Virus record (IMG/VR): IMGVR_UViG_3300037153_000425
Coordinates: 1 to 54,415 of that record
Origin: a virus
Strand: one strand, 5' to 3'
Length of the DNA: 54,415 nt
Of the stretch, positions 2,673 to 50,228 are shown piece by piece. Under the pieces are notes generated by a model that saw nothing but the letters and a program-made list of their open reading frames with translations, made no database searches and was not told where the DNA came from. A program made the translations under genes and the position numbers. Positions within the stretch are counted from its first letter, which is position 1. The number at the start of each line of letters is the position of its first letter.

Positions 2673-2673
2673 C

Positions 2674-3705: not shown

Positions 3706-3719
3706 CCGGGGAGTAGCGC

Positions 3720-4886: not shown

Positions 4887-4897
4887 GGCGGGGCACC

Positions 4898-5125: not shown

Positions 5126-5294
5126 GCGGCCGGCGAGCGTGCCGCGGGCGGTCCTCGAGGAGCGGCGCGCGGCGCTCGGCGCCGAGCTCTTGGCGGCCAT
5201 GCGGCACGTCGAGCAGCTCCGCGGCGCCGTGGCGCTCCTCGACGAGCTCCTCGCGCCCGATGCCGCCGGGCGCCCGCTCGAGGTCGTCGCATGA
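5118..5294 (+). CDS. Small helical protein, 58 aa
   Basis: This short gene encodes a Glu/Arg/Ala/Leu-rich helix (RRAALGAELLAAMRHVEQLR) ending in P-L-E-V-V-A. Its stop overlaps the next start as ATGA. A clear homologue of identical length lies at 42290-42466, so it is a genuine conserved gene although it is short. The repeated leucine spacing suggests a coiled coil. Its place just before two acetyltransferases suggests it may be their partner or a small virion component; this is inference. Confidence 0.6.
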   Translation: MPERPASVPRAVLEERRAALGAELLAAMRHVEQLRGAVALLDELLAPDAAGRPLEVVA

Positions 5295-6423: not shown

Positions 6424-7846
6424 CCGCCGCTACCATCGCACGCGGCCACCGACCTTCACGCGCGCCTACGGCTCGCAAGCCTCGACGCCCGTCACGCGCT
6501 CACCCTTTGGCGGCTTGCCCTACCAGGTCGCCGGGCGTGTCAACCGCCAGCAGCTCTCGCCGCTCTTGATGGGGCTCGGGCTCGGCGTCGGCCCGAAAGC
6601 GCAACAGTTGCAGCAGCAAATCATGAGCGGGCAAGCGCAAGGGCCGCTCGCGTCGGCGATTCGCGGGATCCAGCAATTTGCGCCCGGCGTGATTGGCGGC
6701 GCGCAGGGCATCGGCCAGCAAATGTCGGCGCAAGGCGCCGAGGCCAACCGGCAACTGCAAGCCTCGATTGCCGCCGCGCAGGCGGGGATGCCGCAGTATC
6801 AAAGCGCCGTCAATCAAGGGCTCGCGGCGACGCAAGGCGCGCTCGGCAGTGCGCAGGATCTCTACGGGCAAGCCGCGGCCATGCTCCCCGGGCTCCAGCA
6901 AGTGGCGCAGCAAGGCACGCAGGGCGCGCAATCGGCGCTCGGCCAGGCGCAAAACTACATGACGGGGCCGGCGTTGACGGGCGCGCAGAATGCGTTGAAC
7001 CTCGCGCAGCAGTACACGCAAGGGCCGCAGCTCCAAGGGGCGCAGAGCCAGCTCGCGCGTGCGCAGGAGCTCCTCCGCGGCGGCGCGGCCGAAGGCGGCG
7101 CCGCACAAGCGGTCGACCTGGCGCAGCGCTACGCGCAGCAAGCGGCCTCCCCGATCGCCAACGAGGATCTCTATCAGGCGGCCTCGCGGCGGGTGATGCA
7201 GCAAATCAACCCCGGGCTTGCCGCACGCGGGCTCGAGGCGGGCGGCGCCGGCGCGCAGATGATGACCGATGCGCAACGCGACCTCGCCATGCAGTTTGCG
7301 CAGCAGCAGGCCGCGCAGCGGCAAGCGACGGTGCAAGGCTTGACGGGCGCCACGCAAGGGCTCGGCGGGCTCCAAGCGCAGGCACAACAGAACCTCGGCG
7401 CCGCGGCGTCGGGGCTCGGGAATCTTCAGCAGCAAGGCTTGCAGGGCTACGGGCAGGCCGCAACCAATCTTGGGAACTTGACGCAACAGGGCTTGTCAGG
7501 GTTGACGGCGGCGAGCCAGGGCGCGCAGCAAGCCGCGCAGAATCAAGCCGCCCTCGGGCAATCCATGATCCCGTATTTGCAGGCGATTCAGCAAGGCGCG
7601 CAAGGCGTCGGGGGCGCCGCGCAGCAAGGCGCCGGGATGTTGATGGCGGGGCCGCAGCTCGCCGGGCAGCAAGCGGAGGCCGTCAATCAGCTCGGGCAAA
7701 CCCTCATGCAGCAATACAACATGCCGATGCAGGCATCCGGCAATCTGCTGAACTTGCTTACGGCCGGGCTGTCGCCGGGCTTGCAGATGACGCAGGCCAC
7801 GGCGCCGGTGACGGCCAACCAGAGCAAGGGCTACAACATCATCTGA
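6413..7846 (+). CDS. Gln/Ala/Gly-rich internal virion protein
   Basis: A 477-residue low-complexity protein. After a basic N-terminal tag (DSRRYHRTRPPTFTRAYG) it is built of Gln-, Ala- and Gly-rich amphipathic helical repeats such as QGAQGALGQAQ. Such composition is typical of podovirus ejection proteins packed in the capsid core. A GAGGAGG ribosome site lies about 8 bases upstream of the ATG. The middle-element copy is 35 residues shorter through loss of repeat units. Same strand and close spacing with the next three genes suggest an ejectosome operon; function is inferred. Confidence 0.65.
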   Translation: MHDSRRYHRTRPPTFTRAYGSQASTPVTRSPFGGLPYQVAGRVNRQQLSPLLMGLGLGVGPKAQQLQQQIMSGQAQGPLASAIRGIQQFAPGVIGGAQGIGQQMSAQGAEANRQLQASIAAAQAGMPQYQSAVNQGLAATQGALGSAQDLYGQAAAMLPGLQQVAQQGTQGAQSALGQAQNYMTGPALTGAQNALNLAQQYTQGPQLQGAQSQLARAQELLRGGAAEGGAAQAVDLAQRYAQQAASPIANEDLYQAASRRVMQQINPGLAARGLEAGGAGAQMMTDAQRDLAMQFAQQQAAQRQATVQGLTGATQGLGGLQAQAQQNLGAAASGLGNLQQQGLQGYGQAATNLGNLTQQGLSGLTAASQGAQQAAQNQAALGQSMIPYLQAIQQGAQGVGGAAQQGAGMLMAGPQLAGQQAEAVNQLGQTLMQQYNMPMQASGNLLNLLTAGLSPGLQMTQATAPVTANQSKGYNII

Positions 7847-7854
7847 GGGCGGGC

Positions 7855-8448
7855 ATGACGCACGACTCCCGACGCTACCATCGCCCGCGGCGGCCGACGT
7901 TTGCCCGGGCCTACGGCATGCTCGGCGCGATCGGCAGCGGCCTCGAGAGCGCCGGCAGCGCCGTCGGGAGCGCGGCGGGCACGGTCGGCAGCGGCCTCGA
8001 GAGCGCTGCGAGCTCGGCGCTTGGCGGGGCCGGGCAATCCGCGCTCGGCGGGCTCTCGAGCATCGGACAAGGGTTGCAATCGCTCTTTGGCTCGGGCGGC
8101 GGCGAGGCCGGGCACCTCGCGTCACTCGGGCAAGCCGTGCCCGCCGGCGTCGAGCTCGCCGGTCCCAGCTCGACGTTTACGGGCCCCGGGTTTTTGAGCA
8201 GCGTCATGCAGGGCTTTACGCAGGGCCCGCAATCGTTGGCGAATCCGAGCGCGGGCACGTCGCTCGGCACGGGTGTCGGCCAGCTCTTGAGCACGCTCGA
8301 TCAGATGAACGCCGGGCGGAGCGGCGGCATGTCGCTGCAACCCATTGTCGGCGGCATCACGGGCCAAGCGCAGGGGCCGCGCGTCATTCCCGGCGGCGCG
8401 GCGCAACCGGGCACGGGCCCGATCATGAAGCTCCTCGGGATTCTCTGA
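7855..8448 (+). CDS. Small virion protein with the shared DSRRYHR tag
   Basis: A 197-residue Gly/Ser/Ala-rich protein that starts with almost the same tag as the preceding gene (HDSRRYHRPRRPTFARAYG). This is followed by glycine-zipper-like helices (GSGLESAGSAVGSAAG), suggesting membrane insertion or helical bundling. The tag is retained in the middle-element copy at 44910. It lies between two probable ejection proteins. I propose that the tag is a common targeting or cleavage signal for internal virion proteins; no such signal is known to me. Confidence 0.6.
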   Translation: MTHDSRRYHRPRRPTFARAYGMLGAIGSGLESAGSAVGSAAGTVGSGLESAASSALGGAGQSALGGLSSIGQGLQSLFGSGGGEAGHLASLGQAVPAGVELAGPSSTFTGPGFLSSVMQGFTQGPQSLANPSAGTSLGTGVGQLLSTLDQMNAGRSGGMSLQPIVGGITGQAQGPRVIPGGAAQPGTGPIMKLLGIL

Positions 8449-8449
8449 C

Positions 8450-10972
8450 GTGGACTCGCCGGTTTTCAATACGATCAAGAACGTGGCCGGCTACGGCGTC
8501 GGCACGCTCGCGGCGCTCGATACGATCAAGTCGGGCGGCCTCGGATCGTACTTGATGAACCGGCAACGGCTCATGAGCGACCCGGGCTTTCGCGCGACGC
8601 TCGCCGGCTCGCCGTTCGCGGCGGGCATCTTTGGCGTGTCGGGCGAGACGGGGCCCGCGCCTGCGGCACCGGGCGCGCTCCCGGCGACGGGCGCACCGGG
8701 CGGCCTGGCGCAACCCGCCGACATGGTCGGCCCGCCCGCACCCGGCGTCCAGGTCGCCGCGCCCGCACAAGCGGCGCCCGGCCAGCTCCCGGCGCCGTCG
8801 GCTGTCAACGTACCCGGCTATCTGCCCGGGACGCCGCGCGCGTGGATGCCGAACTTGCCGCCCTACGATCCCGAGGAGGCGCTCAAGCAGCAAGCCCTCG
8901 CCTCGCAGCAAGTGGCGATTGGCGCGGGGAATCCGCTCCAAGCCGGCATCGCCAAGATGCAAGCGGGTATCATGCCGACCGAAGGCGAAACCAAGGCCGT
9001 GCTCGGGCAAGCGGCGGGGATTCAACAGGCCGCCGGCCCCGGCTCGACCGTCGGGGTCAAGCTGCCCGGGATGACGGTACAGATCGGCTCGCCGTACAAC
9101 TTCTCGGCGGTCGGCTCCGACGAGTATCCGAGCTATCAAGTCGCCGCCGCCGCCGCCGCGGCACGCAACGCGCAGCTCCCGCCGGGGAGCGCCGGCTGGA
9201 CGGTCGTGCCCTCGGGCCGCGGCACCTTCTTGATTGCGCCGCCGCCGACGCGCGAGCAAGAGTTCCCGACGACACCCCCGGCGCCCGCGAAGAGTGGTGA
9301 AATGCCAGGCGCCCCGCCGGCGCCCGTGATGCGGGGCGGGACACCGCCGCCGGGCGCACCCGGCGGGACGCCGGGTCCGACGGCGTCCGCAATGCCCATG
9401 GCGCCGACACTATCGGCGCCGGTGATTTATCCCGCCCCGAAAGGTTTTGTCTTTCACCATTCGGGCGGCTCGACACTTGCCGGATTGACGACGACGTTAG
9501 CTGATCGCGGTCTCGGCTCGGAATATGTCATGGACCGTGATGGGACGATCTACAGCTATGCGGGTCAGGGGTCACCGCATATCCGACCCAATGACCAATA
9601 TGGCGGCATTGCGCCGGGGCTCACGAACACGAATGCACTCGGGATGGAGGTGGTTGCCAAGGATAACAACGACGTTACGCCGGCACAGATTGCATCTGCA
9701 CAGAAGTTTATCGCGGACAATTATCCCAATACGCCCATCTACGGACACGGCGAAGTAAATCCCGGGCACAAGCAGGCGACCGAGGGCATGGCGATTGTCA
9801 GCGCCATTCGGAACGATCGGGGTATGGCGGTCGCTTCCACGCCGACGACGCGCCCGAGTGTCTCTTTGGGTGGCGGCATTGCATACGCGGCGGCGCCCCC
9901 GCCCGGCGCCACGGTCACGCCGCCACCGCCACCCGCTCCCGCCGCGCCGAGCTTCGATCCCGACGCCACGGTGCCGCACGTCCTCGTGCCCGCGCCGGCC
10001 CCTGCCGAGGCGACGGTCGGCTATCCTCCGGCCGCGCCGGGCCCGGCGGCGGGAGTGATTGTGCCGCAACGGATTCCGACGCTCAGGACGCCGGCGCCAC
10101 CTCCACTCCCGGGCGCGACCGCGCCGCCAGGCGCCGCCGTGCTCCCGGGGACGAATGTCGATCCCGCCACGGGGCTCCCACTCACGGGCCGGACGTATGA
10201 ATCCAAGACCGGGAGCGAGACGTTTACCGCGCCGCCGCGGGGCGACGCCCGGACGCAGATGCTCATGCGCAAGTACGGCATTACCGACTGGGCGCTCGCG
10301 AGCGCGAAACAAATCGACGACTACATGGCCGAGGATCGGGCGTTGAAGATTCAGGACGACTTCGACAAGGCGGCAATTGCGCGCACGCAACGCGCCCCGA
10401 GCGCCGAGGAAGAACGGATCTCGAACCGTTACTTCATGATGAAGCGCAACTATGACGATTTTCTTACGCAGTATCCCAACCCGGAGGATCGGGCGAAGTT
10501 CCTCGGACTCGCGCGCGCGCCGTGGGAAACGCTGCTTGAACGAGTCGGGTGGCGGAATGCGACGGCGATTCGGGATTTCCGCAATGCGTTTGCGTCGTTC
10601 TCACTCGAAAGCCTCACCGACGACAGGGGCAAAGCCCAGCCGGGATTCGAGGGGATTGCACAGACGGCGCCGAGCGCCTCCGACTCGGCCCCGGTCTTTG
10701 AGAGTAACCTGCAGCATTTCGGCGACCTGTTGAACGATCAGATCACCCTCGACACCAATACCGCCGCGCTTCCGGTCGGCGCCCGGACGCCCGCGGTGAT
10801 GCAAAGCTTGCTGGATCAGATGCGGGTCAACCGCGACGCGGCCCGGCAGGCGGAGTCTCAGCCGCCCCCCGAGGCGCCCGCCGCACCGCCGCCGCCCCCC
10901 GCCGCCACCGCGGCACCGCCCCCGCCGGCCGCGGCGACTGCGCAGCCGTGGTCGCCGAACTGGGTGCACTGA
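8450..10972 (+). CDS. Large ejected virion protein with N-acetylmuramoyl-L-alanine amidase domain
   Basis: An 840-residue protein from a GTG start one base after the previous stop. Residues 1-270 and the last 180 match the middle-element homologue. Residues of about 325-455 are an Amidase_2/PGRP-type domain: F-H-H-S at 335-338, a Y-G-H-G-E at 431-435 and H440 are probable zinc/catalytic positions. It would cleave peptidoglycan during DNA entry. The domain is bracketed by Pro/Ala linkers, and the DNA at 9420-9850 is visibly less GC-rich than its flanks, suggesting recent import. In the middle element the slot holds a different domain. Confidence 0.75.
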   Translation: MDSPVFNTIKNVAGYGVGTLAALDTIKSGGLGSYLMNRQRLMSDPGFRATLAGSPFAAGIFGVSGETGPAPAAPGALPATGAPGGLAQPADMVGPPAPGVQVAAPAQAAPGQLPAPSAVNVPGYLPGTPRAWMPNLPPYDPEEALKQQALASQQVAIGAGNPLQAGIAKMQAGIMPTEGETKAVLGQAAGIQQAAGPGSTVGVKLPGMTVQIGSPYNFSAVGSDEYPSYQVAAAAAAARNAQLPPGSAGWTVVPSGRGTFLIAPPPTREQEFPTTPPAPAKSGEMPGAPPAPVMRGGTPPPGAPGGTPGPTASAMPMAPTLSAPVIYPAPKGFVFHHSGGSTLAGLTTTLADRGLGSEYVMDRDGTIYSYAGQGSPHIRPNDQYGGIAPGLTNTNALGMEVVAKDNNDVTPAQIASAQKFIADNYPNTPIYGHGEVNPGHKQATEGMAIVSAIRNDRGMAVASTPTTRPSVSLGGGIAYAAAPPPGATVTPPPPPAPAAPSFDPDATVPHVLVPAPAPAEATVGYPPAAPGPAAGVIVPQRIPTLRTPAPPPLPGATAPPGAAVLPGTNVDPATGLPLTGRTYESKTGSETFTAPPRGDARTQMLMRKYGITDWALASAKQIDDYMAEDRALKIQDDFDKAAIARTQRAPSAEEERISNRYFMMKRNYDDFLTQYPNPEDRAKFLGLARAPWETLLERVGWRNATAIRDFRNAFASFSLESLTDDRGKAQPGFEGIAQTAPSASDSAPVFESNLQHFGDLLNDQITLDTNTAALPVGARTPAVMQSLLDQMRVNRDAARQAESQPPPEAPAAPPPPPAATAAPPPPAAATAQPWSPNWVH

Positions 10973-10975
10973 GCG

Positions 10976-12142
10976 ATGCCCGATCAGGCGCTTTTCGCGT
11001 ATCGCGTGCAGCTCCCCGACGGGAGCGAGACGGTGCGGACGGGCGGGGCCGACCGGCCGCCGACGCATGGCGAACTCGCCGATTACGCCGCGAACCAGGG
11101 CGAGCGCTACCTCGGGCCGGTGGCGATGTCGCCCAACATTCCGACCGGGAGCCCGCCCCCCGAGGCGGCACCCACGCCATCGCCCGCCGCGCCCACCGTG
11201 CCACCACCGGCCCCGCCCGAGGCGGTGGCCTCGCCGAGCACGCTCTCGCATACGCTCTGGCCCGAGCGCTCGATCGCGAGCCAGGTGCCGAGCATCGTTG
11301 GGGGTGTTGGCGGGGGTATGCTCGCGGGGGCGGGGATGGGCGCGCTCGGCGGCCCCTTGGCCCCGATCACGGTGCCCGTCGGGGCGATTATCGGGGGCGC
11401 GCTCGGCTCGGGTGGCCTCGAGTATCTCACGGCGAAATCGGAGCAAGAAGCGGGCATCCCGCCGTCCGAGGAGGGCACGCCGGCCGAGCGGGCGGTGCGG
11501 GCCGGGGTGCGTGGTGGCGTCGGCGAGACGGGCAGCCAGCTCGTGCAAGGGGGCGCGCAGGCCGTCAAGGCGCTCGCGCGTCCGGTCCTCAGCGCGGTCG
11601 AGCAAGTTGCCCCGACGATCACGCGCGAGCTGCCCGCCGAGGCCACGGCCGTGACGACGAAGGTCGGGCAGTTGATTCGCGACCCGGGGGCGCTCGCCAC
11701 CGCCCCGCTCGGGCCGCAGGGCCAGCGCACCATGCTCCCGGCATGGTGGCAATACCACACCGCCAACGGGGCCGACGCGGTCGTCAAGGCGTGGGATGCG
11801 CTCACGCCGGTCGGCCAATTGAACCTCGCCGGCCCGCAGGTCGACGCCATGGGCCGCATCGTCGATGCGCTGCGCCCGAGCGGCATGGGCATCGGCAGCC
11901 TCGCCAAGAGCGCCGGCTTACCGGCGACCCTGTCGCACTACGGGGTGATTTCCTACCCGACGGCGGTAGGGCTCACTGCGGCAACCAGACTCGGGCAGGA
12001 GTACGCGCCGCGCGCCTTGCTGTATCCGACCGCGCTCGATTGGATGTCGCGGCTCCCGCCAATCTCGCGAGTGGCGAGCCCGTGGGCCAGCGCCGCGACG
12101 AGCACGGTCGGGCAGATCGGGGCGCGGGAAGCGCTGCCCTAG
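10976..12142 (+). CDS. Membrane-spanning ejection protein
   Basis: A 388-residue protein. After a conserved start (MPDQALFAYRVQLPDGSE) and a Pro-rich linker comes a long Gly-zipper hydrophobic stretch near residues 104-152 (GGVGGGMLAGAGMGALGG and onward), then a mixed helical C-terminus. This resembles podovirus proteins that form the channel across the inner membrane during DNA ejection. It is the last gene of the rightward late operon and converges on a leftward mini-gene, with overlapping stops. The copy at 48041 has the same layout. Confidence 0.6.
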   Translation: MPDQALFAYRVQLPDGSETVRTGGADRPPTHGELADYAANQGERYLGPVAMSPNIPTGSPPPEAAPTPSPAAPTVPPPAPPEAVASPSTLSHTLWPERSIASQVPSIVGGVGGGMLAGAGMGALGGPLAPITVPVGAIIGGALGSGGLEYLTAKSEQEAGIPPSEEGTPAERAVRAGVRGGVGETGSQLVQGGAQAVKALARPVLSAVEQVAPTITRELPAEATAVTTKVGQLIRDPGALATAPLGPQGQRTMLPAWWQYHTANGADAVVKAWDALTPVGQLNLAGPQVDAMGRIVDALRPSGMGIGSLAKSAGLPATLSHYGVISYPTAVGLTAATRLGQEYAPRALLYPTALDWMSRLPPISRVASPWASAATSTVGQIGAREALP

Positions 12143-12234
12143 CGGAGACGTCGCGGGAGGAACACGGCGAGCACGCGCACGAGGACCGTCGCCAGGAACG
12201 AGATGCTTACGAACTCGATGATCCAGGCCGTCAT
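12139..12234 (-). CDS. Tiny single-pass membrane protein, 31 aa
   Basis: An ATG at 12234 opens a 31-residue peptide (MTAWIIEFVSISFLATVLVR then Leu/Ala/Val and a basic C-terminus) with one clear membrane segment and a positive tail. Its stop overlaps the stop of the convergent ejection gene. A comparable 32-residue membrane peptide with the same C-terminal L-R lies at the same place in the middle element (49225-49323) despite different sequence, so selection for a tiny membrane peptide is plausible. Function unknown. Confidence 0.45.
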   Translation of the reverse strand: MTAWIIEFVSISFLATVLVRVLAVFLPRRLR

Positions 12235-12254
12235 AGCGTTACAGACGATACGTG

Positions 12255-12329
12255 TCATGCCCGCGTGTCGGCAAGCCCCGCAGGGGCCTTAGCGGGCTTC
12301 CAGCCGCGCGGCTCGTCATCCTGCGCCAT
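12255..12329 (-). pseudogene. Fusion remnant of two small genes lost by deletion
   Basis: The first eight codons (MAQDDEPR) are those of the 31-residue gene at 49946-50041 in the middle element. They then run out of frame into the last codons of the coiled-coil gene at 49378-49641, whose G-W-K-P-A-K end survives here. The middle element therefore shows the older order, and about 600 bases carrying a coiled-coil gene and a membrane-protein gene were deleted here. Confidence 0.6.
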
Positions 12330-13596
12330 CACTCGCTCCGTCCACCGCGAGAATCGCGCGCCCGATCACCTCGACGACTTGCGGCACGACCGCGTTGCCC
12401 AGCGCCTTCAACTCGTCTCGCCAGCGGGCGCCAGCCAGTCGGGCGGATACCCCATGAGCTGCGCGGGTTTCCTGCCGCTGATATGCTGCCCACGCTTGCG
12501 TTGCGTCCAGTGCCACCCGTCGTGACACGGCTTGCAGAGCGTCTGCAGATTCTTGAGTGCTGTATTCTTCCGATCGTGGTCGACGTGATGCACCACGAGC
12601 TTGCGCCTTGAGCCACAGCTCTCGCAGGCGTCCTTCAGGGCGAGCGCTCGCGCACGCTTGCACAACGTCGTCTTGTTCGAGGAATCCACCCCGCGCGACG
12701 CAGCAGAGCACGTAAGCGAGCAGAACCGACGACGAGAGAAGCTGCCCCGATCTTCCAGCCGCCCGTTGAAACGACTGCGGGTCAACGTCGCGCCACAGGT
12801 CGAGCACGGCTTCGAGGGGCACGGCAGAGCATTGCGTCCCATCGCTCACCACCTGAGCCAGCCAGCTGGGTAGCCCATCAAGGTCTCCACCCACCGGGGA
12901 TTCAACCGTGCGCGGCGGCTCCCACTCGTGCGGACGACCACCCGGCCGAGCAGGCCATTGCTCGGCACGTTCGCATCGTGGCAGGCCCCGTCCTTCCAAT
13001 CGCGTTGGGTCGCGGTCGGCCATTCCAGCACCTCGGCCGCGAGAATCCGCCCGTGCCCTCGCGCCACGCTCGGTTGCGTCTTGCGCGTCCGCTGCTCGTT
13101 TTCCGAGCTGCGCGGCGTCGGCCACTCGCCCGACGATCCAGACGCGGTCGCGGCGGTGCGGGGCGCCGACGTGTCGAGCACCCACCACGAGCGGCCAGCA
13201 GGCGTAGCCCGCCGCCTCTAGGTCGCCGAGGACGCTATCCGCGCCGCGACGGCGCAAAGCAGGCACGTTCTCGACGAGCACCCAGCGTGGGCGGAGCTCG
13301 CGGATGATGCGGGCAAACTCGCGCCAGAGCCCGCTGCGCCATCCGGTGATGCCGACGCCTTTGCCCGCTGCCGAGATGTCCTGGCAGGGGAATCCGCCGG
13401 CGATGAGGTCGACGGGCTTGAGGGTGCCGGCGCCTGCGAATCGCACATCCCGGCGTCGGGCAACGTGGGGCCAGTGCCGGGCGAGCACGTTCTCACAGTA
13501 GGGCTCCCGCTCGACCTGCCAGCGCACCGTGAAGCCGGCGCGCTTGAGGCCGAGTGACATGCCCCCGATGCCGGCGAACAGGTCGCCGCATGTCAC
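12316..13596 (-). CDS. DNA cytosine-C5 methyltransferase, interrupted by an HNH gene
   Basis: From a GTG at 13596, overlapping the previous stop as GTGA, the frame gives 426 residues. It carries C5-methyltransferase motif I (DLFAGIGG, residues 5-12), motif IV with catalytic Cys71 (GGFPCQDIS), motif VI (ENV, 109-111), motif VIII (RRDR, 148-151) and motif IX/X (GNAVVPQV, near 400). Between VIII and X, where target recognition should lie, an HNH gene is coded in another frame and this frame is merely open across it. The recognition domain may therefore be broken and activity is doubtful. The C-terminus (GASDGAG) is borrowed from the zinc-ribbon gene it was inserted into. Absent from the middle element. 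Confidence 0.7.
   Translation of the reverse strand: MTCGDLFAGIGGMSLGLKRAGFTVRWQVEREPYCENVLARHWPHVARRRDVRFAGAGTLKPVDLIAGGFPCQDISAAGKGVGITGWRSGLWREFARIIRELRPRWVLVENVPALRRRGADSVLGDLEAAGYACWPLVVGARHVGAPHRRDRVWIVGRVADAAQLGKRAADAQDATERGARARADSRGRGAGMADRDPTRLEGRGLPRCERAEQWPARPGGRPHEWEPPRTVESPVGGDLDGLPSWLAQVVSDGTQCSAVPLEAVLDLWRDVDPQSFQRAAGRSGQLLSSSVLLAYVLCCVARGGFLEQDDVVQACASARPEGRLRELWLKAQARGASRRPRSEEYSTQESADALQAVSRRVALDATQAWAAYQRQETRAAHGVSARLAGARWRDELKALGNAVVPQVVEVIGRAILAVDGASDGAG
12408..12842 (-). CDS. HNH endonuclease inside the methyltransferase
   Basis: A 144-residue frame with two zinc-knuckle Cys pairs (CSTCG near residue 13, CSLTC near 41) and an HNH core: C-E-S-C-G, then V-V-H-H-V-D-H, then N-L-Q-T-L-C-K-P-C-H. 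It starts 4 bases after a stop in a third frame that ends with a methyltransferase-like L-M-G-Y-P-A-G-W. Its own end repeats a similar L-M-G-Y-P-P-D-W-L, as if the insertion carried or duplicated the flank. This is typical of a free-standing homing-type endonuclease invading a host gene. Confidence 0.7.
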   Translation of the reverse strand: MGRNALPCPSKPCSTCGATLTRSRFNGRLEDRGSFSRRRFCSLTCSAASRGVDSSNKTTLCKRARALALKDACESCGSRRKLVVHHVDHDRKNTALKNLQTLCKPCHDGWHWTQRKRGQHISGRKPAQLMGYPPDWLAPAGETS

Positions 13597-13763
13597 GGCG
13601 CCGTCCCGTGCCGCGCTCGCCACGCGGCCACGCGACAGAGCGGCGAGCAATAGCGGGCGGTCGCCCGCACGGGTTTGAAGCGCACCCCACACCGGGCGCA
13701 CTGCTGTAACGCTATCGATGCCCGCCTACCCGTTACAGGGCCCGGGGTGGGCTTCCCGGTCAT
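13593..13763 (-). CDS. Zinc-ribbon protein, 3' end replaced by methyltransferase insertion
   Basis: A 56-residue protein starting at the ATGA overlap with the RHH gene. It has C-A-R-C-G-V-R-F and Y-C-S-P-L-C-R-V-A-A-W-R, a compact four-Cys zinc ribbon. The homologue at 50028-50228 is 10 residues longer and ends G-A-S-D-G-A-G. Here the end is T-A-P and the original tail is found at the end of the methyltransferase 1.27 kb away, so the insertion point is seen directly. Role unknown, possibly nucleic-acid binding. Confidence 0.6.
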   Translation of the reverse strand: MTGKPTPGPVTGRRASIALQQCARCGVRFKPVRATARYCSPLCRVAAWRARHGTAP

Positions 13764-13990
13764 GCCGAGGTGCGCGCGGGCCGTGGTAGCGTTGCGAGGG
13801 CCCTTCTCGGGCCATCGTGGTGCGCGTCCGTGCCGCCGGTGCACCGCCGCAAGTGCACCTCGAGCGCGTCGCGCACCCAATCCTGCACCAGAACCTCCGT
13901 GGCGATGCACTCGAGTTTCAGCGCGCGGTGCACCCGTTTCGGGATGCGGGTCGCGAGCTGGACGCTATCCGCCGGAATGTCGTTCGCCAT
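13760..13990 (-). CDS. Ribbon-helix-helix DNA-binding protein
   Basis: A 76-residue protein with a beta-strand V-Q-L-A-T-R-I-P followed by K-R-V-H-R-A-L-K-L and V-Q-D-W-V-R-D-A-L, the Arc/CopG-type ribbon-helix-helix pattern. It is nearly identical to the copy at 50225-50455. It overlaps the 3' end of the resolvase gene and the next gene by ATGA, so it belongs to the leftward replication operon, where it may act as an autoregulator. Target unknown. Confidence 0.65.
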   Translation of the reverse strand: MANDIPADSVQLATRIPKRVHRALKLECIATEVLVQDWVRDALEVHLRRCTGGTDAHHDGPRRALATLPRPARTSA

Positions 13991-14495
13991 CGGTGGCTCC
14001 TCCGGAATGGGTCGCCGCGAGATAGGCGGCGAGCAGCAGGGCCTCGGCGGGGCCCTCGTCGGCGGCTTGGATGACGCCGAGACTCGGGAACCGTTCTTGC
14101 GCGCGCAGCCGGCTGACGCGCTTGGCGGCGCCCAGCAGCCCGGCGTGCCGCTTCCAGACGGTCGGCTGGATGACGCGGTAGGGGACGCGAGCGGCGACGA
14201 TGAGCCCGAGCCACAAGCCGAAGCCGACGCCGGTACGGTAGCTCGAGGCGACCCCTTGCTGGGGCCGGGCGCCTTGCGCCTCGAGGGCGACCTCGACGCC
14301 CCGGCCGTTGATGGCCCGGGTCAAGAGCGCCCACATGGCCGCCGGGTCGTAGTCGTCGCGCATGCGGCGGTTCCGCAGCACGATCAAGCGGGGCGTGCGG
14401 CGCAGCGCCGCGGCGACGACCGCGCCGGCGTCGTCGAGGTCGAGGACGCCGAGGCCGCCGGTGACGCCCGGGTCGCACCCGATCACGCGCCTCAT
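13965..14495 (-). CDS. RuvC-like Holliday junction resolvase
   Basis: A 176-residue RNase-H-fold protein starting MRRVIGCDPGVTGGLGVLDL, with the first catalytic Asp in G-C-D-P-G-V. A second acidic site is in V-A-L-E-A-Q and the C-terminal acidic cluster is A-D-E-G-P-A-E-A-L-L-L-A near residues 140-151. P-T-V-W-K is also typical of phage RuvC-like resolvases. It would resolve branched replication or recombination DNA before packaging. The copy at 50430 has the same length. Located among leftward replication genes. Confidence 0.75.
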   Translation of the reverse strand: MRRVIGCDPGVTGGLGVLDLDDAGAVVAAALRRTPRLIVLRNRRMRDDYDPAAMWALLTRAINGRGVEVALEAQGARPQQGVASSYRTGVGFGLWLGLIVAARVPYRVIQPTVWKRHAGLLGAAKRVSRLRAQERFPSLGVIQAADEGPAEALLLAAYLAATHSGGATDGERHSGG

Positions 14496-15046
14496 GGCGT
14501 CTGCTCCCCGGCGTCGAGGGCGGCGAGCGCATCAACCAACGCCTGTTCCCAATCCTGATATGGCGGATCGGGGAAGTTTTCCCGCATCTCCCGCGCCGCC
14601 TCCACCACGCGCTCCCGCGCCTGCTCGCGGGCGAGGAGCGCGGCCAGGTCGGGGGCGTTAAGTAATTCGTCGGCGGACTTTGTGACGAGGGTATCTTGTC
14701 CACCCCATGCTCGAAGCGTCGTGCAGGTGGACCGCAGTTCCTTCACCAGCGCCGCGACGTGGGCGCGGAGTTGGTTGAGCCGCGTCGCGCCTTCCCCGAG
14801 GATTCTCCGCTCCGCAGAGGCGGCGTCATGCAGTTCTTCCCCGAGATGCCTGTTCATGTCCGTGAGCCGCGTGTTCTCGGCGCGGAGTTGGTCGCGTTCG
14901 TAGCCAATCGACGCGATACGCTGCTGATCAATACGACCAAGAGAACGGCGCGTTTCCACGTCCTGCGTGAGCCGCGCGTTCTCTTGATTCAGGCGGTCGA
15001 CGCAAGCGCAGCATGCGTGCTCTTGTGGCATGGGGTGCATAGCCAT
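14492..15046 (-). CDS. Coiled-coil protein, N-terminus rebuilt after HNH insertion
   Basis: A 184-residue protein starting at ATG 15046 with a GGAGG ribosome site. It has a C-C-A-C cluster, then long heptads (RLNQENARLTQDVETRR and onward). Its last part (LRAHVAALVK, then DAPDLAALLAREQARERV) matches the middle-element gene at 50957-51352. The front differs, because here an HNH gene has been inserted after codon 14 of the ancestral gene. Function unknown; its stop overlaps the resolvase start. Confidence 0.55.
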   Translation of the reverse strand: MAMHPMPQEHACCACVDRLNQENARLTQDVETRRSLGRIDQQRIASIGYERDQLRAENTRLTDMNRHLGEELHDAASAERRILGEGATRLNQLRAHVAALVKELRSTCTTLRAWGGQDTLVTKSADELLNAPDLAALLAREQARERVVEAAREMRENFPDPPYQDWEQALVDALAALDAGEQTP

Positions 15047-15354
15047 AGGACCTCCAGCGGTCGGGCGTAATCTTCGTGGTGCGCGTGCAGGCGAGCTCCG
15101 ATGCCACACCGTTGGCAGGTGGTCGGCGCCACGATGCGCCCGCTGCGACGCGCCTTGTAGAGTTGGCGATGCGCTCGCCGTGCTCCGGGTGTTCGATCGT
15201 ACCAATCCTTCACGCCCGACCGCATTTTCTCCATCCGGCGTCGGTTTCTAATGCGTGCCTGTTCGCGAACGCGCTCGCGATTCTTCTCGCGCCACGCCGC
15301 AGCGATCGCTCGGCGATGGATGCGCGCGGCCTCAGTTGTGGGCTTACTCGCCAT
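14989..15354 (-). CDS. HNH endonuclease
   Basis: A 121-residue protein with a basic N-terminal helical region (NRERVREQARIRNRRR) and a compact HNH core: C-Q-R-C-G, L-H-A-H-H-E-D-Y, L-C-T-P-C-H. It overlaps the start of the downstream coiled-coil gene by 58 bases in another frame. The middle element has an uninterrupted coiled-coil gene here, so this is a mobile, probably homing, insertion. The ATG overlaps the remnant of the interrupted gene. Confidence 0.7.
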   Translation of the reverse strand: MASKPTTEAARIHRRAIAAAWREKNRERVREQARIRNRRRMEKMRSGVKDWYDRTPGARRAHRQLYKARRSGRIVAPTTCQRCGIGARLHAHHEDYARPLEVLWLCTPCHKSTHAALASTA

Positions 15355-15388
15355 GCTCCTCCCGCAGCGCCTCGAGGTCGTCCGTCAT
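15344..15388 (-). pseudogene. Truncated start of the coiled-coil gene
   Basis: Fourteen codons, MTDDLEALREEHGE and a stop, correspond to the start MTDELEALRAEN of the intact gene at 50957-51352. The HNH start codon lies within these codons. This marks the 5' insertion point of the HNH gene. Confidence 0.65.
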
Positions 15389-15507
15389 GGGTTCGACACG
15401 CGGTAGAGCACGAGCGTCGAGAACACGCCGAGGAGGCCCGCCGCCGCCCAGAGCGCCAGCACGGCGAGCGTCTCGAGCCAGGTGGCGGGCCGGTCGTCGT
15501 CGTCCAT
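15385..15507 (-). CDS. Small membrane protein, 40 aa
   Basis: A 40-residue peptide with an acidic start (MDDDDRPATWLETL) and one membrane span (AVLALWAAAGLLGVFSTLV). It differs by one residue from the copy at 51349-51471, so it is strongly conserved. Its stop overlaps the next start as ATGA. Possibly a membrane anchor or regulator in the replication operon; role unknown. Confidence 0.6.
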   Translation of the reverse strand: MDDDDRPATWLETLAVLALWAAAGLLGVFSTLVLYRVSNP

Positions 15508-15508
15508 G

Positions 15509-15811
15509 TCAGCCCTCCTCGCCGGCGCGTCGCGTGCGCCAGCGTCCGGTGCGGGCGTCCTCGGCCGCCCAGTGGGCTTTCCACCACGCGGCGGCCTGCG
15601 CGCGGCGTGCGGTGTCGCGGGTCCATTCGTCTGCCGCACTGACCTGCGGCTCCGCATACTCGCCCCGCTCATAGGCCGCGTGGTCGGCGGGCGTGACTGG
15701 GAGCCCGAGCTGGCGCCGGCGGCGCGCGATGTCCGGCGGGTAGGTGCCGCGGCGCTTCTCCTCGGGCGACTCGACGGCGCCCTCGTCGACCCATCCCCGC
15801 GTTTTTTTCAT
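15509..15811 (-). CDS. Uncharacterised 100-aa protein
   Basis: Starts at ATG 15811, overlapping the stop of the replication gene. The last 35 residues (WWKAHWAAEDARTGRWRTRR) match the end of the 166-residue gene at 51473-51973, while the N-terminal parts are unrelated. This is a chimera whose conserved tail is shared between elements with different replication proteins. No family recognised. Confidence 0.5.
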   Translation of the reverse strand: MKKTRGWVDEGAVESPEEKRRGTYPPDIARRRRQLGLPVTPADHAAYERGEYAEPQVSAADEWTRDTARRAQAAAWWKAHWAAEDARTGRWRTRRAGEEG

Positions 15812-16563
15812 CCCCGCCTCCGTTCGAGCTCCCAGGCGTTGCGGACCCAGTACTCCCACGCGCGGACCCAATCGGCGTGGCGGACGTCGTCCCGCAGCGC
15901 GTGGGCTTGGAACTTGCCCCACTCGTAGCGGGCGTCGAGCCCTTGCCGGGTCGCGTAGGCTGCGCGCGTCTCGGTCAAGGCGAAGTCATGGGGCCACGGC
16001 GTCTTGGCTTTCGCGCGTGGGGGCGCCGACTTTTCTTTGCGAGCGAAAGCGAGTTTCTTTTGTTCAGATCCGGGTACGGGTACGGGTACGGGATACACGG
16101 GGACAGCATCGGGACTCCCCGGGGGACAATCGTGCATGTCCCCCTCGGTGTCCCCTGGGGACTCCCCCCGGGACAGACGTTGCTTCGCCTTCTTGGATCG
16201 CGCACGTTCGCGATCGGCAAGAACTTTCTCGCGCGGCGGATTGTAGACGAGATAATCGTGCAGCTCCCAATACGCGCCGCGGTCATGCCAGAGGCCGATG
16301 GTCGCGAGCTCCGTGGCGATCTCGTCGGCGTCCAGCGGCAGAAAACGGTCCTCCTCCGGCCCGCAGGCCGGCGGCGCCGCCAAGGCCGTCCCGATGCCAT
16401 CGAGGCAGACCAGGGTCCGCACGCGGAGTTTCGGAATCAGGCCATCGGTCAGATTCCGGGCGCACCACGTGATGGCGGCGACGTGCAGTGCGAAGCCGAG
16501 CGGCCCCGCCGCGATGATTTTCGCGTTGTCGAGAATCGCGTCATCCAGTCGCGCCCAACTCAT
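15808..16563 (-). CDS. Phage replication protein, type 1
   Basis: A 251-residue protein starting M-S-W-A-R-L-D-D. The N-terminal 120 residues resemble the winged-helix region of phage replisome-organiser proteins (W-x-x-L-D-D start, a T-D-G-L-I-P motif). The middle is a low-complexity Pro/Val linker coded by G/C-rich repeats (see 16099-16175). The C-terminus (WVRAWEYWVRNAWE) could recruit helicase or its loader. The middle element has an unrelated replication protein in the same place. Role inferred from architecture and position beside the attachment site. Confidence 0.55.
   Translation of the reverse strand: MSWARLDDAILDNAKIIAAGPLGFALHVAAITWCARNLTDGLIPKLRVRTLVCLDGIGTALAAPPACGPEEDRFLPLDADEIATELATIGLWHDRGAYWELHDYLVYNPPREKVLADRERARSKKAKQRLSRGESPGDTEGDMHDCPPGSPDAVPVYPVPVPVPGSEQKKLAFARKEKSAPPRAKAKTPWPHDFALTETRAAYATRQGLDARYEWGKFQAHALRDDVRHADWVRAWEYWVRNAWELERRRG
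16099..16175 (-). other. Candidate replication origin: GGGGAC/GTCCCC dyads inside the replication gene
   Basis: Six copies of the hexamer GGGGAC or its complement (one or two with a mismatch), including the palindrome GTCCCCTGGGGAC at 16150-16162, lie in the middle of the replication gene. A less GC-rich stretch (about 16025-16075) lies beside them. This is the layout of lambdoid origins inside the initiator gene. A triplicated GGGTAC hexamer lies just downstream. The role is inferred. Confidence 0.4.
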
Positions 16564-16589
16564 CGCAACCCCTCCCCACGCCGCCGGGC

Positions 16590-16610
16590 GGTGCAAAGCG
16601 CGTTGCAAAG
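16590..16610. repeat. Paired arm-type repeats, left side of attachment site
   Basis: GGTGCAAAG at 16590-16598 and GTTGCAAAG at 16602-16610, spaced 12 bases. The same word occurs as a second 12-base-spaced pair on the other side of the tRNA core (16833-16853). Such paired direct repeats flanking a core are typical of integrase arm-type sites. Confidence 0.55.
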
Positions 16611-16712
16611 GAATTTCTGGCAACACGCGGCATCTGGCGTGAAACGTGACCGATGCCGCCCCACGCGGAATCTGAGGGAGCCTGCGACGTTAGGGTGCGC
16701 CCGCTGCTCGGA

Positions 16713-16735
16713 GGTGCCAACTGATTCTTGGCGCC
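16713..16735. other. Conserved hairpin next to the tRNA core
   Basis: GGTGCCAA and TTGGCGCC form an 8-bp stem (one G-T) around a 7-base loop. The same hairpin occurs at 52869-52891 with one loop change. It lies just 3' of the tRNA fragment on the tRNA strand and could be part of the recombination core or shape the 3' end of a transcript. No T-tract follows, so it is not a standard terminator. Confidence 0.4.
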
Positions 16736-16736
16736 G

Positions 16737-16780
16737 CCCGATTCGTAGTCAGACGCTCTATCCAACTGAGCTATGGGCGC
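16737..16780 (-). other. Attachment-site core: 5' half of tRNA-Arg(ACG)
   Basis: Read on the minus strand from 16780, the sequence folds as the 5' half of a tRNA: acceptor strand GCGCCCA, D-arm GCTC/GAGC, and an anticodon arm with loop CTACGAA, anticodon ACG. After the anticodon stem the match to tRNA ends: no T-arm with TTC and no CCA follow. The block 16731-16841 is identical to 52887-52997 while the flanks differ, as expected for an integration core under selection. I read it as the element boundary, not as a working tRNA. Confidence 0.65.
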
Positions 16781-16797
16781 GCAGTAGGGAAGTCGCG

Positions 16798-16826
16798 GAG
16801 TTAGCGCGATTTGGAGGCCACCGCAA
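16798..16826 (-). promoter_or_regulatory. Candidate promoter reading into the tRNA half
   Basis: On the minus strand TTGCGG (16826-16821), a 17-base spacer and TAACTC (16803-16798) end 17 bases before the tRNA 5' end. The sequence is identical in the second attachment region. If the phage supplies the 5' half of the host tRNA on integration it must also supply a promoter, and this is the best candidate. Confidence 0.4.
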
Positions 16827-16832
16827 CCCCCC

Positions 16833-16853
16833 GGTGCAAAGCCCGGTGCAAAG
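16833..16853. repeat. Paired arm-type repeats, right side of attachment site
   Basis: GGTGCAAAG at 16833-16841 and again at 16845-16853, matching the pair at 16590-16610. Having arms on both sides is the phage-type arrangement, so this junction looks like a full phage site between two elements instead of a chromosome-phage hybrid. Confidence 0.55.
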
Positions 16854-16874
16854 GATTCGTGTGGCGAATGCATC

Positions 16875-17393
16875 CTAGTCCTGATGAATCCTCTTGTGGC
16901 AGTCAGTACAGATCGCGACGAGGTCGAAAAGCATCTCGCGTCCGAGGCGGCGATAGTGCAGGTGATGCGCCTGCGTGGCCCGTCGCTCTCCGCAGCCTTC
17001 GCACAGGTGGCCCGCGCGGTGCAGGACGCGGCTGCGGCGCGCGTGCCATGCGGGCGTCCTGAGATACTCCTCATAGCGCCGGTGCCATTCCTCGTCCGCG
17101 CGTTGTTGCTCGGCGACATACTGGGCCTGCAGCATCGCACCTCTGACGCGCGCGGCGATGCTGTTCCGGCATCCTTGGCACGTACTGCTGGTCCCCTCGT
17201 TGCGGCCGAGCGCAGTGCCACCGAGTGCCGACGTCTCTCGTCCGCAGACCGTACGGGCCGGATTGTCGAGATGGACGACATGAATCTTGCCGCTGCAGAG
17301 TTGTCCGGTAACCGGGTGCCGATATTGGGCCGCCTGCCAGAGTGGGGCTTCGGACCAGCGCTCGTCTTCTTCGTATGGATCGAGCGTGGGCAT
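16875..17393 (-). CDS. HNH endonuclease between attachment site and integrase
   Basis: A 172-residue protein starting three bases after the integrase stop. The N-terminal half has three Cys-containing loops (LCSGK, TVCGRET, TCQGC). The C-terminal half has a coiled region and an HNH core: C-E-G-C-G, T-Q-A-H-H-L-H-Y, I-C-T-D-C-H. In the right-hand element the integrase stop lies directly beside the attachment region with no such gene, so this is an insertion. It may be a homing-type enzyme. Confidence 0.7.
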   Translation of the reverse strand: MPTLDPYEEDERWSEAPLWQAAQYRHPVTGQLCSGKIHVVHLDNPARTVCGRETSALGGTALGRNEGTSSTCQGCRNSIAARVRGAMLQAQYVAEQQRADEEWHRRYEEYLRTPAWHARRSRVLHRAGHLCEGCGERRATQAHHLHYRRLGREMLFDLVAICTDCHKRIHQD

Positions 17394-17395
17394 CC

Positions 17396-18535
17396 TCACC
17401 GCTTCCCCTGCCGGCCCCGGAAGCGGGCCCGCTCGGCCGCCACCGTGCGCGCCCGGTCCATCGCCGCGCGCAGCCGCTCGACGTTGCCCATGTCGTAGTT
17501 CCGAAAGACGTAGGCCGTATGATGCCCGGTCACTTTCATGGCGTCGGCCTCCTCGAGCCCGCCGGCCCGCAGCGTGGTCGCCGCCGTGCGCCGCGTATCG
17601 TGGAACACGTAGCCGCCCGCCACCGCGCCGACCGGGAGCGCGGCCGCCGTGCACGCGCGCGCCCACGCCTTCCGAAAATCCCCGAGGCAGCCGTATTTCT
17701 TGGACGGCGCGCGCCCGCCCCGGCACCAGCGCCCGTGAAACAGGTACGGGCACCACGGGCGTGCGGCCGCCAGGGCCTCCTCGACAAGCGTCAAGGACCG
17801 GCCGACGAGCGGCAAGACGTGCGGCTCGCGCGCCTTGCACTCCTCCGGCGGCCACTCGATCACCGCCCGCTCGAGGTCGACGAAGCGGCGCAACGTGCGT
17901 GCCAACTGGCCGCGGCGGATGCCGTTCTCGAGCGCGAATTCGAAGAACACCGCGGCGTAGTCGGGGAGCTGCTCGAGGAGCACGATCGCGTCGCCCGGCG
18001 GCACGTAGCGGGCCCGGCGCCGCCGCCGGCGCTCGTCCCGCATGGCAAAGTACGGCACCCCGCGGAGCTGGCCGGTCTGGCAGGCCAGCCGGTAGGCCCG
18101 GCGCAGCGCCGCGAAGCGGCGATTGATCGTGGCGTTGCTCGCCCCGGCCCGTTTCCAGGCGTCGCCGATGGCGGTCACCTGCTGCGGCGTCACCGTGGCC
18201 GGGCGGAGCGGGCCGACGCCGGCCGCGAGCCACGCCTTGATCGAGCCGCGGACGCTCGGCAGCGAGGTCTGTTCGTTTCGCGTGTAGTCCGCCTCGAGCT
18301 CGGCGAGGAGCTGCGCGACGGTGAGGCGCCCGCTCGGGACCTCCTCGCCGTCGGCGACGGCGGCGAGCCGCTGCGCCCGCAGCCCCCGCGCGGCGCGGAT
18401 CGACGTCGTGCGGGCGCTCTCCTGCCGGACGCGGCCGCCCTGCGTGTAGTGGATCCAGAGCGTCGGGAGCACGGCCGCCGTCCGCGGCGAGATGCGCCGG
18501 AAGATGCCCGGCTCGACGGCGACGGTGCGTTTCAC
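17396..18535 (-). CDS. int: Tyrosine integrase
   Basis: A 379-residue tyrosine recombinase from a GTG that overlaps the excisionase-like stop as GTGA. The N-terminal part is an arm-binding/core-binding region. Catalytic residues are visible: Arg207 (GIRRGQ), a candidate Lys234 (EECKAREPHV), His312 and Arg315 (FHDTRR), His338 (VTGHH) and the nucleophile Tyr347 (RNYD). It would recombine the phage site with a tRNA-Arg gene, fitting the core 0.6 kb away. It is clearly homologous to but diverged from the integrase at 53029-54159, so the two elements have sister integrases with the same core. Confidence 0.9.
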   Translation of the reverse strand: MKRTVAVEPGIFRRISPRTAAVLPTLWIHYTQGGRVRQESARTTSIRAARGLRAQRLAAVADGEEVPSGRLTVAQLLAELEADYTRNEQTSLPSVRGSIKAWLAAGVGPLRPATVTPQQVTAIGDAWKRAGASNATINRRFAALRRAYRLACQTGQLRGVPYFAMRDERRRRRRARYVPPGDAIVLLEQLPDYAAVFFEFALENGIRRGQLARTLRRFVDLERAVIEWPPEECKAREPHVLPLVGRSLTLVEEALAAARPWCPYLFHGRWCRGGRAPSKKYGCLGDFRKAWARACTAAALPVGAVAGGYVFHDTRRTAATTLRAGGLEEADAMKVTGHHTAYVFRNYDMGNVERLRAAMDRARTVAAERARFRGRQGKR

Positions 18536-18945
18536 GGCAGATCGCCCTGGATCCCCGCGAGCAACTGCCGCTTCCACCAAATGACTTTGCCGTTGGGGTA
18601 CTTGTGGTACCCGGGCAAGTCTTTCCCGCAGTGCCGTAACCGCGATTTCGAGTAGCCGGTGAGCACCATCACCGCGGCGATCCCGAGCGGCTCATCGGGC
18701 TCGACGGCGTGTACCGGCGGCGGGCTCGGCACGGCCAGCTCGACGCACGTCGCCTTCGCGACCTCACAGTGCCCGATCGTCTCGATGGCGTCGCCGAGGC
18801 TGGCGGCATTCAGGGCGGCGCCGAGGGCGAGCTTCACGGCTGCCCACTGCTGGCCGTTCGCCTTGGCGTGGATCGTCGCCCTGGCCCCCGTCGTCAATTC
18901 GCCCCCGAATCGTCGCCTCCCCGCCGCATCCACCCCGCTGCCCAC
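18532..18945 (-). CDS. Excisionase-like winged-helix DNA-binding protein
   Basis: The C-terminal 45 residues (V-L-T-G-Y-S-K-S-R-L-R-H, then P-G-Y-H-K-Y-P-N-G-K-V-I-W-W-K-R) have the look of a MerR/AlpA-type excisionase domain. The N-terminal 90 residues are helical and unrecognised. I chose the GTG at 18945, about 25 bases after a predicted transcription start. The frame stays open further upstream, so the start is uncertain. Translational coupling to integrase supports a recombination directionality role. Confidence 0.6.
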   Translation of the reverse strand: MGSGVDAAGRRRFGGELTTGARATIHAKANGQQWAAVKLALGAALNAASLGDAIETIGHCEVAKATCVELAVPSPPPVHAVEPDEPLGIAAVMVLTGYSKSRLRHCGKDLPGYHKYPNGKVIWWKRQLLAGIQGDLP

Positions 18946-48037: not shown

Positions 48038-48040
48038 CTG

Positions 48041-49323: not shown

Positions 49324-49377
49324 CGTGTCACAGACGATACGTGTCATGCCTGCGTGTCGGCAAGCCGCGCAGGGGCC

Positions 49378-49641: not shown

Positions 49642-49678
49642 ACGTTAGCGTTACACCGCGCGGCCCGCCGCGGGCAAG

Positions 49679-49945: not shown

Positions 49946-50041
49946 CTACCCGTCGCCCCGGGACGCCTCGCGGTAGAGCGCGGCGAGCGCCCCGCGCACG
50001 GCGACCTCGGGCACGGCCCGCGGCTCGTCATCCTGCGCCAT
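49946..50041 (-). CDS. Small protein, 31 aa
   Basis: ATG at 50041 overlaps the zinc-ribbon stop; MAQDDEPRAVPEVAVRGALA then a short basic end. Its first codons survive at 12329 in the left element. Short and without a domain; reality moderately supported by the coupled start. Confidence 0.4.
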   Translation of the reverse strand: MAQDDEPRAVPEVAVRGALAALYREASRGDG

Positions 50042-50228
50042 CACTCGCCCCGTGCCGCACCCGCCACGCGGCAACCCGACACGTCACGCCGCAGTAGCGT
50101 GCCGACGACCGCACCGCGTGGAATGGGGCGCCGCATTCCGCGCACCGCGCGGTGACTTTTGTCCGACCCTGCAACGGATTCGATGCCCGCCTACCCGTTA
50201 CAGGGCTCCGGGTGGGTGGTCCGGTCAT
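50028..50228 (-). CDS. Zinc-ribbon protein, intact
   Basis: A 66-residue protein with C-A-E-C-G and Y-C-G-V-T-C-R-V-A-A-W-R. This is the uninterrupted form of 13593-13763 and ends G-A-S-D-G-A-G, the tail that now ends the methyltransferase in the left element. Start by ATGA overlap with the RHH gene. Confidence 0.65.
   Translation of the reverse strand: MTGPPTRSPVTGRRASNPLQGRTKVTARCAECGAPFHAVRSSARYCGVTCRVAAWRVRHGASDGAG

Follow-up and report, generated by a model that had tools for sequence, protein, structure and literature searches.

A predicted C5-cytosine DNA methylase gene in this viral DNA holds, wholly inside its coding region and in its +1 frame, an open reading frame (ORF) for a candidate HNH endonuclease. 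Four features were observed directly: the nesting itself, its repeated occurrence at a constant point of the methylase, avoidance of stop codons in the methylase frame, and the scatter of HNH-bearing genes on the methylase tree. On these sequence comparisons, the likely interpretation is that an HNH homing endonuclease, nesting in the +1 frame, has settled in an orphan phage C5-cytosine methylase gene. Positions refer to the window, the whole stretch of 54,415 nucleotides that was analysed.

The methylase ORF runs on the minus strand from a GTG start to its stop (12316..13596; 426 aa) and is assigned by alignment and by matches to PF00145 (140.1 bits) and TIGR00675 (109.6 bits). The C5 DNA methylase motifs PCQ, ENV, RxR, and GNxxxP are all found in one frame of the predicted protein. 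What we take to be motifs I to VIII lie upstream of the nested HNH ORF, and what we take to be motif X (ALGNAVVP) lies downstream of it in the same frame. The protein shares the full N-side motif set and the GNAVVP end with the phage C5 DNA methylases of phrog_363 and TIGR00675, but differs from them by about 140 extra residues before motif X, which are the shadow of the HNH gene. The predicted HNH endonuclease (12408..12842, minus strand; 144 aa) scores 24.9 bits against PF01844 (cut-off, 21.4), and nine aligned HNH sequences all keep the same zinc cysteines and HNH residues. Third-position GC in the insert peaks in the HNH frame (0.77 vs. 0.60 in the methylase frame). An earlier note on this DNA had pictured a methyltransferase-HNH cassette; it had missed the complete nesting, and the HNH ORF lies within the methylase ORF in another frame, not beside it.

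A fold search with the HNH model (pLDDT 77, pTM 0.48) gave no match at E values up to 0.001, and phmmer found no match up to 0.1 among PDB sequences; the HNH protein of the window could be inactive. Confidence in the methylase model is mostly good in the core, up to residue 170, and good in the end helix; it is low from about residue 185 to 400, a region that covers the insert and also the stretch before it. The insert is probably about 140 extra, unstructured methylase residues. Elsewhere in the window, positions 16884-17180 on the minus strand give a weak HNH-like match to the nuclease of locus L002 (E = 2.8e-4); the 246-aa ORF at this place has no PHROGs match.

Alignment of ten HNH-bearing with ten HNH-less methylases places the beginning of the extra sequence after EPDVG and its end before RVAHGVPxRVDRL. 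The insert opens with xLDGFSxWLD, which is similar to the RVAHGVPxRVD that comes after the insert, and the same DNA read in the +1 frame encodes LNPxWVExLMGxP. In the window, an LMGYPxxWL segment occurs before the HNH ORF (12855..12881, minus strand; direct repeat D4 at 12857-12870) and again at its 3' end (12429..12458, minus strand; D4 at 12430-12443; local nucleotide alignment, P = 0.016). A terminal-repeat score of 53 against a null mean of -166 is given no weight here, because the 16-residue strings were picked and placed by hand and two of ten, including that of the window, are negative; for the likeness of the ends we rely on the methylase alignment and, in the window, on the nucleotide alignment and D4.

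HNH genes are the usual passengers of introns and inteins, and an intron or intein removed from the methylase, with the HNH gene as its passenger, could account for the insert. The likeness between the insert start and the sequence behind it is also a feature that PMC11855218 discusses as a hint of a group I intron. We nevertheless consider this origin most unlikely. No Rfam match up to E = 1 was found in 12200-14100, none at gathering score was found in seven relatives, and four methylases scanned to E = 10 contained no intein splicing model; the strong stop avoidance described below would be needless for an intron. Group I and II introns and inteins were rejected as candidates on the lack of signal in these Rfam and intein-model scans. 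Among known nucleases, the closest parallels are the HNH homing endonucleases of the I-HmuI type, which share the zinc-cysteine HNH core, a conserved site in a phage gene, and scattered occurrence. I-HmuI is intron-borne, whereas no intron or intein is found here, and the fold match to I-HmuI (1u3e) is weak (E = 0.53).

The arrangement recurs in other phages. The first HNH search returned nine viral loci, and in seven of them a methylase N-half stands directly upstream. A wider search (best 80 matches listed) gave 32 rows of at least 60 bits; a methylase N-half lies upstream in 30 of them, and removal of the duplicates L094, L100, and L104 leaves 27 loci. The methylase ORF is open through the HNH gene and ends with motif X behind it in 16 of the 27; in L085 and L089 it stops short of the HNH gene. 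Nine of the 27 (L092, L095, L096, L098, L099, L101, L106, L108, and L120) have the methylase N-half in one frame, with motif X and the reading open through the HNH gene in the next. There the LNPxWVE-like segment (where present), the HNH shadow, and motif X share one ORF, 452 to 594 codons long, with which most of the methylase N-half overlaps. These nine loci may encode two overlapping subunits, rely on a programmed frameshift, or be broken genes; because the frame of the N-half differs from that of the end, a number of these enzymes may be defective or produced in another way. This, like the early methylase end in L085 and L089, counts against the homing interpretation.

The nested arrangement is also present in Staphylococcus phage CUB-EPI_14, whose ORF is annotated as a methyltransferase, in Komagataeibacter phage phiKX1 (L186), and in a Spirochaetes MAG contig, and all three HNH ORFs score above the Pfam HNH cut-off. 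Phage phiKX2 has the same HNH match as phiKX1. A search of genome contigs returned ten loci, with good scores only for L189 and L190. These occurrences provide evidence that nested HNH genes may be widespread, and suggest that hidden HNH nucleases form a recurring class in phage C5 methylases.

For each HNH gene, synonymous codons were permuted with the protein and codon usage kept, and stops were compared with this expectation over 28 rows, the 27 deduplicated loci plus the Staphylococcus phage. In the frame that trails the HNH frame by one base, where the end of the methylase lies in 26 rows, there are 2 stops against 138.1 expected, both of them in L089. The third frame is not depleted (134 stops vs. 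123.4 expected). The window has no stop in the methylase frame where 5.57 are expected (P = 0.0005). Two later additions behave similarly: L189 has no stop against 4.0 expected, and L186 has one against 6.5, which is the methylase's own end at 3007. We take this as evidence that the methylase frame is probably under selection to stay open through the HNH gene. An open frame might instead be an accident of GC-rich sequence and codon use, since the window has a high GC content and the expectation for L087 is below one stop in any case. Such an accident is hardly credible given that the deficit persists under a permutation that keeps both protein and codon usage, that the third frame remains undepleted, and that the AT-rich Staphylococcus phage is also stop-free (0 vs. 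11.1 expected). Amino-acid constraint beyond stop avoidance, with a mean z of 2.68 in the methylase frame vs. 0.88 in the third frame (338 pairs, L085 and L089 left out), is not counted as evidence, because stops were penalised in the permuted sequences and account for part of this signal.

As a control, distant HNH ORFs without a recognised methylase were permuted in the same way. From the best 80 matches listed, 50 loci were chosen, 49 of them long enough; L124, L130-L133, L137, L141, L151, L152, and L158 were left out by eye as likely repeats. The 49 rows contain 1181 stops vs. 1276.8 expected. Six of them are stop-free, and each of these lies within a host ORF in that same phase: a C5-methylase ORF at a contig end in two cases, a terminase ORF with intein ends in four. 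Without the six, 1181 stops compare with about 1216 expected.

A tree of 107 methylase N-halves, 28 of them with HNH, was built without the duplicates L094, L100, and L104 and without L085 and L089, the methylase-query rows being the best 80 matches. It requires nine changes of the HNH label, at least five of them forced by supported branches; these counts do not tell gain from loss, and some long branches are uncertain. L003 is an HNH-less sister of the window methylase (support, 98/83), and L037 is an HNH-less sister of L002 (98/86). Shuffled HNH labels give 25.1 changes on average, so the label is also clustered on the tree and much of the HNH occurrence is inherited. As judged from this tree, the HNH label is inherited in part and was gained or lost several times.

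The same distribution bears on a reading in which the two nested genes form a compact restriction-modification pair, the methylase protecting the HNH sites and the nesting linking the genes. Methylase and nuclease do share one locus, with a C5 methylase directly upstream in 30 of the 32 HNH rows of at least 60 bits. Such a pair is nonetheless unlikely: 79 of the best 80 matches of the methylase query lack such an HNH gene, and two supported sister pairs join an HNH-bearing with an HNH-less methylase. Further, the insertion point is constant, as for homing, and HNH genes nested in the same phase occur in terminase ORFs with intein ends, where there is no methylation.

We return to the homing endonuclease, the reading that we prefer, for which the following steps are proposed. 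The HNH gene sits in the +1 frame of the methylase ORF between motif VIII and motif X, and its DNA would be read through as a methylase insert of about 140 residues; as the insert stays open in the methylase frame, splicing would be unnecessary. The nuclease would be translated from its own start just past a +1-frame stop and would cut HNH-less methylase genes near the conserved LNPxWVExLMGxP segment, whereupon repair would copy the HNH gene into the cut methylase gene. Its target is probably the HNH-less methylase gene rather than the zinc-ribbon junction described below, because the HNH family sits at one place in C5-methylases of unrelated phages. Ordinary mosaic recombination between phages, and not the nuclease, would have brought the methylase with its passenger to its place behind the zinc-ribbon gene of the left element, ahead of the next gene.

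Window positions 1-18791 and 37965-54415 are collinear in pieces, with about 69 to 97% identity, and represent two related phage elements in one record, with tail-fibre-like and Erf-like genes. The order on the minus strand of the left copy is zinc-ribbon gene, methylase, next-gene start, and that of the copy at 50 kb is zinc-ribbon gene, next-gene start. In the latter, the site without the methylase reads GCGGCACGGG followed directly by GCGAGTGATGG and falls between 50049 and 50048. In the left copy, GCGGCACGGG is followed by ACGGCGCC at the upstream junction (13614-13597), and GGTGGACGGA is followed by GCGAGTGATGG at the downstream junction (12346-12326). Comparison of the copies thus delimits 1,268 nt in the left copy (12337..13604, minus strand) that are absent from the matching junction of the second. 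A block of 35 bp at the junction (12307..12341, minus strand, with 50019-50053), which includes the beginning of the next gene, is 97% identical between the copies, and beyond the insert they are 89% identical (944 columns); the match of the junctions is therefore not by chance.

The zinc-ribbon gene of the left copy (13593..13763, minus strand; a weak zf-MYND match, below cut-off) ends in RHGTAP, and its TGA (13595-13593) overlaps the GTG of the methylase (13596-13594) as GTGA. Its counterpart in the second copy (50028..50228, minus strand) ends in AWRVRHGASDGAG. The methylase C terminus reads AVDGASDGAG, and its ASDGAG tail is the start of the next gene read out of frame (ATG at 50041 and 12329); the zinc-ribbon gene and the methylase enter one next-gene start, both in the same frame. 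In the relative L175, the zinc-ribbon gene ends in a similar tail, GGAHGAG. Much of what the earlier note had described here is borne out: the insert at the zinc-ribbon end is real, its limits (12332-13603 in that account) agreeing with ours within five bases, as are the shortened RHGTAP end, the GTGA overlap by which the left copy keeps overlapping starts, and the reappearance of the lost zinc-ribbon tail at the methylase C terminus, which we trace to the out-of-frame start of the next gene. The claim of a precise insertion stands only in part. There are 1,268 extra nucleotides at the junction, but 12310 pairs with 49399 and 12307 with 50019, which means that, across the 35-bp block from the insert, the left copy is about 620 bp short. 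As the copies differ past the block too, the site was exchanged on both sides, a mosaic replacement and not one clean insertion. The gene behind the junction, 81 aa long in L175, is shortened to about 24 codons in the left copy (12252-12329, minus strand) and to 31 in the second (49949-50041, minus strand).

Relatives of the junction were collected with the neighbouring upstream RuvC-like Holliday junction resolvase (13965..14495, minus strand; phrog_1770, E = 1.5e-16), which matched 14 viral contigs. The zinc-ribbon gene is present in 12 of these loci, 11 of them distinct (L180 equals L181 there); L183 has no zinc-ribbon match, and contig L184 stops at the match. In none of the 12 does a methylase follow the zinc-ribbon gene within the 1.3 to 5.6 kb examined behind it. 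Short ORFs that differ from relative to relative lie there, and L175 shares its next gene with the second copy. Because all 12 lack the methylase there, the methylase form is most likely the derived one and insertion is favoured over deletion, in keeping with the earlier account. Since the zinc-ribbon tails differ among the relatives, the exact insert-less site is defined by the second copy only.

In a mobile-cassette reading suggested by the earlier note, which proposed a test of whether the HNH enzyme cuts the empty site, the nuclease would be the agent of this insertion, cutting at the zinc-ribbon junction and bringing the methylase there. The insertion at an "empty" gene junction holds, and its ends do lie within a few bases of the zinc-ribbon stop and the next-gene start. 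A repeat search found no repeats of at least 12 nt at both ends of the 1,268-nt insert and only a short palindrome across the upstream junction, and neither this search nor the other comparisons linked the HNH gene to the way in which the methylase came to follow the zinc-ribbon gene. The HNH family occurs at a constant place inside methylases in unrelated settings, DNA was exchanged on the other side of the 35-bp block too, and the region behind the zinc-ribbon gene varies freely in relatives, like an ordinary mosaic boundary. A nuclease-cut junction is very unlikely on these grounds.

How the nested HNH gene might be translated is indicated by the +1 frame upstream of it. In the window, a +1-frame ORF of 111 aa from a GTG (12846..13181, minus strand) ends in LNPRWVETLMGYPAGWLRW and matches phrog_1008 (E = 2.6e-8 over 20 residues). 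It is closed by TGA, followed by one codon and then the HNH ATG (TGA GCG ATG). A +1 ORF that spans 217 to 386 codons and stops ahead of the HNH gene is present in 12 of the 16 read-through loci. The LNPxWVExLMGxP segment ends this ORF in 11 of the 12, and in 9 of the 12 its stop is followed after 0 to 9 nt by the first possible HNH start. The window ORF is shorter (123 codons), and L083, L093, and L109 are without such an ORF. Because the +1 ORF stops just before the HNH start, we suggest that the HNH gene may be translated by re-initiation behind this stop. A Shine-Dalgarno match of at least four letters precedes 11 of 25 starts vs. 13% of random stretches, with the best of several starts taken.

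The +1 frame is also long in methylases that carry no HNH gene. In the HNH-less set (L003-L081; 79 loci, the best 80 matches of the methylase query minus L002), the median length of the longest stop-free run is 240 codons in the +1 frame vs. 66 in the +2 frame, and runs of at least 200 codons occur in 63 of 79 loci in the +1 frame vs. none in the +2 frame. Stops in the +1 frame number 195 vs. 319.7 expected over the first 150 codons (76 loci) and 166 vs. 276.3 over the rest (75 loci); those in the +2 frame are at expectation (527 vs. 527.9 and 546 vs. 534.1, respectively). The LNPxWVExLMGxP segment was located in the +1 frame in 53 of the 79, in the methylase frame in 3, and not at all in 23. 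The +1-frame ORF matches phrog_1008, whose label is "DNA methyltransferase", with E = 4.2e-31 for protein P0008 and with the value given above for the window (P0009); this match is to the non-catalytic frame, and the window ORF is short (111-123 codons), with only the 20 residues matched. Since the +1 frame is long, depleted of stops, and matches phrog_1008, these data point to dual coding as what would be the common state of phage C5-methylase genes. Part of the openness may have been inherited from an ancestral frameshift. The window methylase shows no stop depletion in the +1 frame (2 vs. 2.2 expected in the first 150 codons; 3 vs. 3.3 in the rest), so its +1 ORF is at best a remnant.

The four stop-free controls in terminase ORFs are HNH ORFs in the +1 frame of their hosts (L118:990-1919, L125:2231-3199, L146:3161-4222, and L155:3284-4273). 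All four hosts score above the cut-off of TIGR01630 (terminase large subunit) and above that of the intein C-terminal splicing model; the intein N-terminal model is above cut-off in L125 and L155, below it in L146, and not listed for L118. L118 and L146 pass the Pfam HNH cut-off, which L155 narrowly misses and L125 misses. The terminase frame has no stop in any of them, vs. 9.7, 16.2, 18.7, and 6.3 expected for L118, L125, L146, and L155. These four loci appear to be inteins with an out-of-frame nuclease. A broader proposal, plausible but to our minds slightly short of an even chance, is that dual coding is the rule in this large group of phage C5-methylase genes, with a +1 protein (phrog_1008) that seemingly includes methylase motif IX, and that the HNH homing family has specialised in the +1 phase behind its stop, with the same lifestyle in terminase inteins. 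If this is true, frame-keeping hidden nucleases would be a general third route into genes, beside introns and inteins, that causes no breakage.

Out-of-frame HNH genes of this kind have a precedent. PMC11855218 describes an out-of-frame HNH ("ShiLan domain") in a mycobacteriophage methylase, ShiLan gp65, and a second, less certain case in Pacc40 gp60; its abstract mentions similar elements in other phages and prokaryotes. A genome note on phage Applejack also reports an HNH out of frame in a methylase (PMC12613952). The ShiLan element and ours both have an HNH ORF in another frame of a phage methylase gene whose own frame is open throughout. Both are scattered among related methylases, with no intron or intein detected, and in both the insert start resembles the sequence behind it. 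The ShiLan element is also stop-free in its methylase frame when permuted (0 vs. 2.35 expected, P = 0.018). However, gp65 belongs to the N6/N4 class (PF01555) and the window methylase to the C5 class, the ShiLan HNH lies in the +2 frame of its methylase and ours in the +1 frame, and the two HNH sequences have no meaningful similarity (best E = 0.035 over 13 residues). The available part of PMC11855218 reports no ribosome-binding site for ShiLan, whereas here a +1 ORF ends just before the HNH gene in most read-through loci. Homology or common descent with the ShiLan element was rejected on the differing HNH, methylase class, and frame. By these comparisons, the nested HNH of the window is of the published kind, but with an unrelated HNH, another methylase class, and another frame.

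What appears to be new here is the recurrence in many phages, the permutation-tested stop avoidance, and the C5-methylase class. In searches of an open-access literature library, with PMC11855218 available in part, we found no report of out-of-frame HNH genes in C5-methylases, of a permutation test for stop avoidance, of a +1 ORF that stops ahead of the HNH gene, or of out-of-frame HNH genes in terminase inteins. A host frame that is stop-free under synonymous permutation offers a signature for finding more such genes, and its application to the control HNH genes pointed to the nested cases in terminase ORFs with intein ends. It makes testable the entry of a selfish gene into another gene by neither splicing nor disruption. 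Annotation overlooks nested genes of this sort: in the phiKX1 record, the +1 ORF (L186:1889-2497) and the methylase end (L186:2803-3009) are separate hypothetical genes, and the 549-codon methylase ORF and the HNH ORF are both unannotated.
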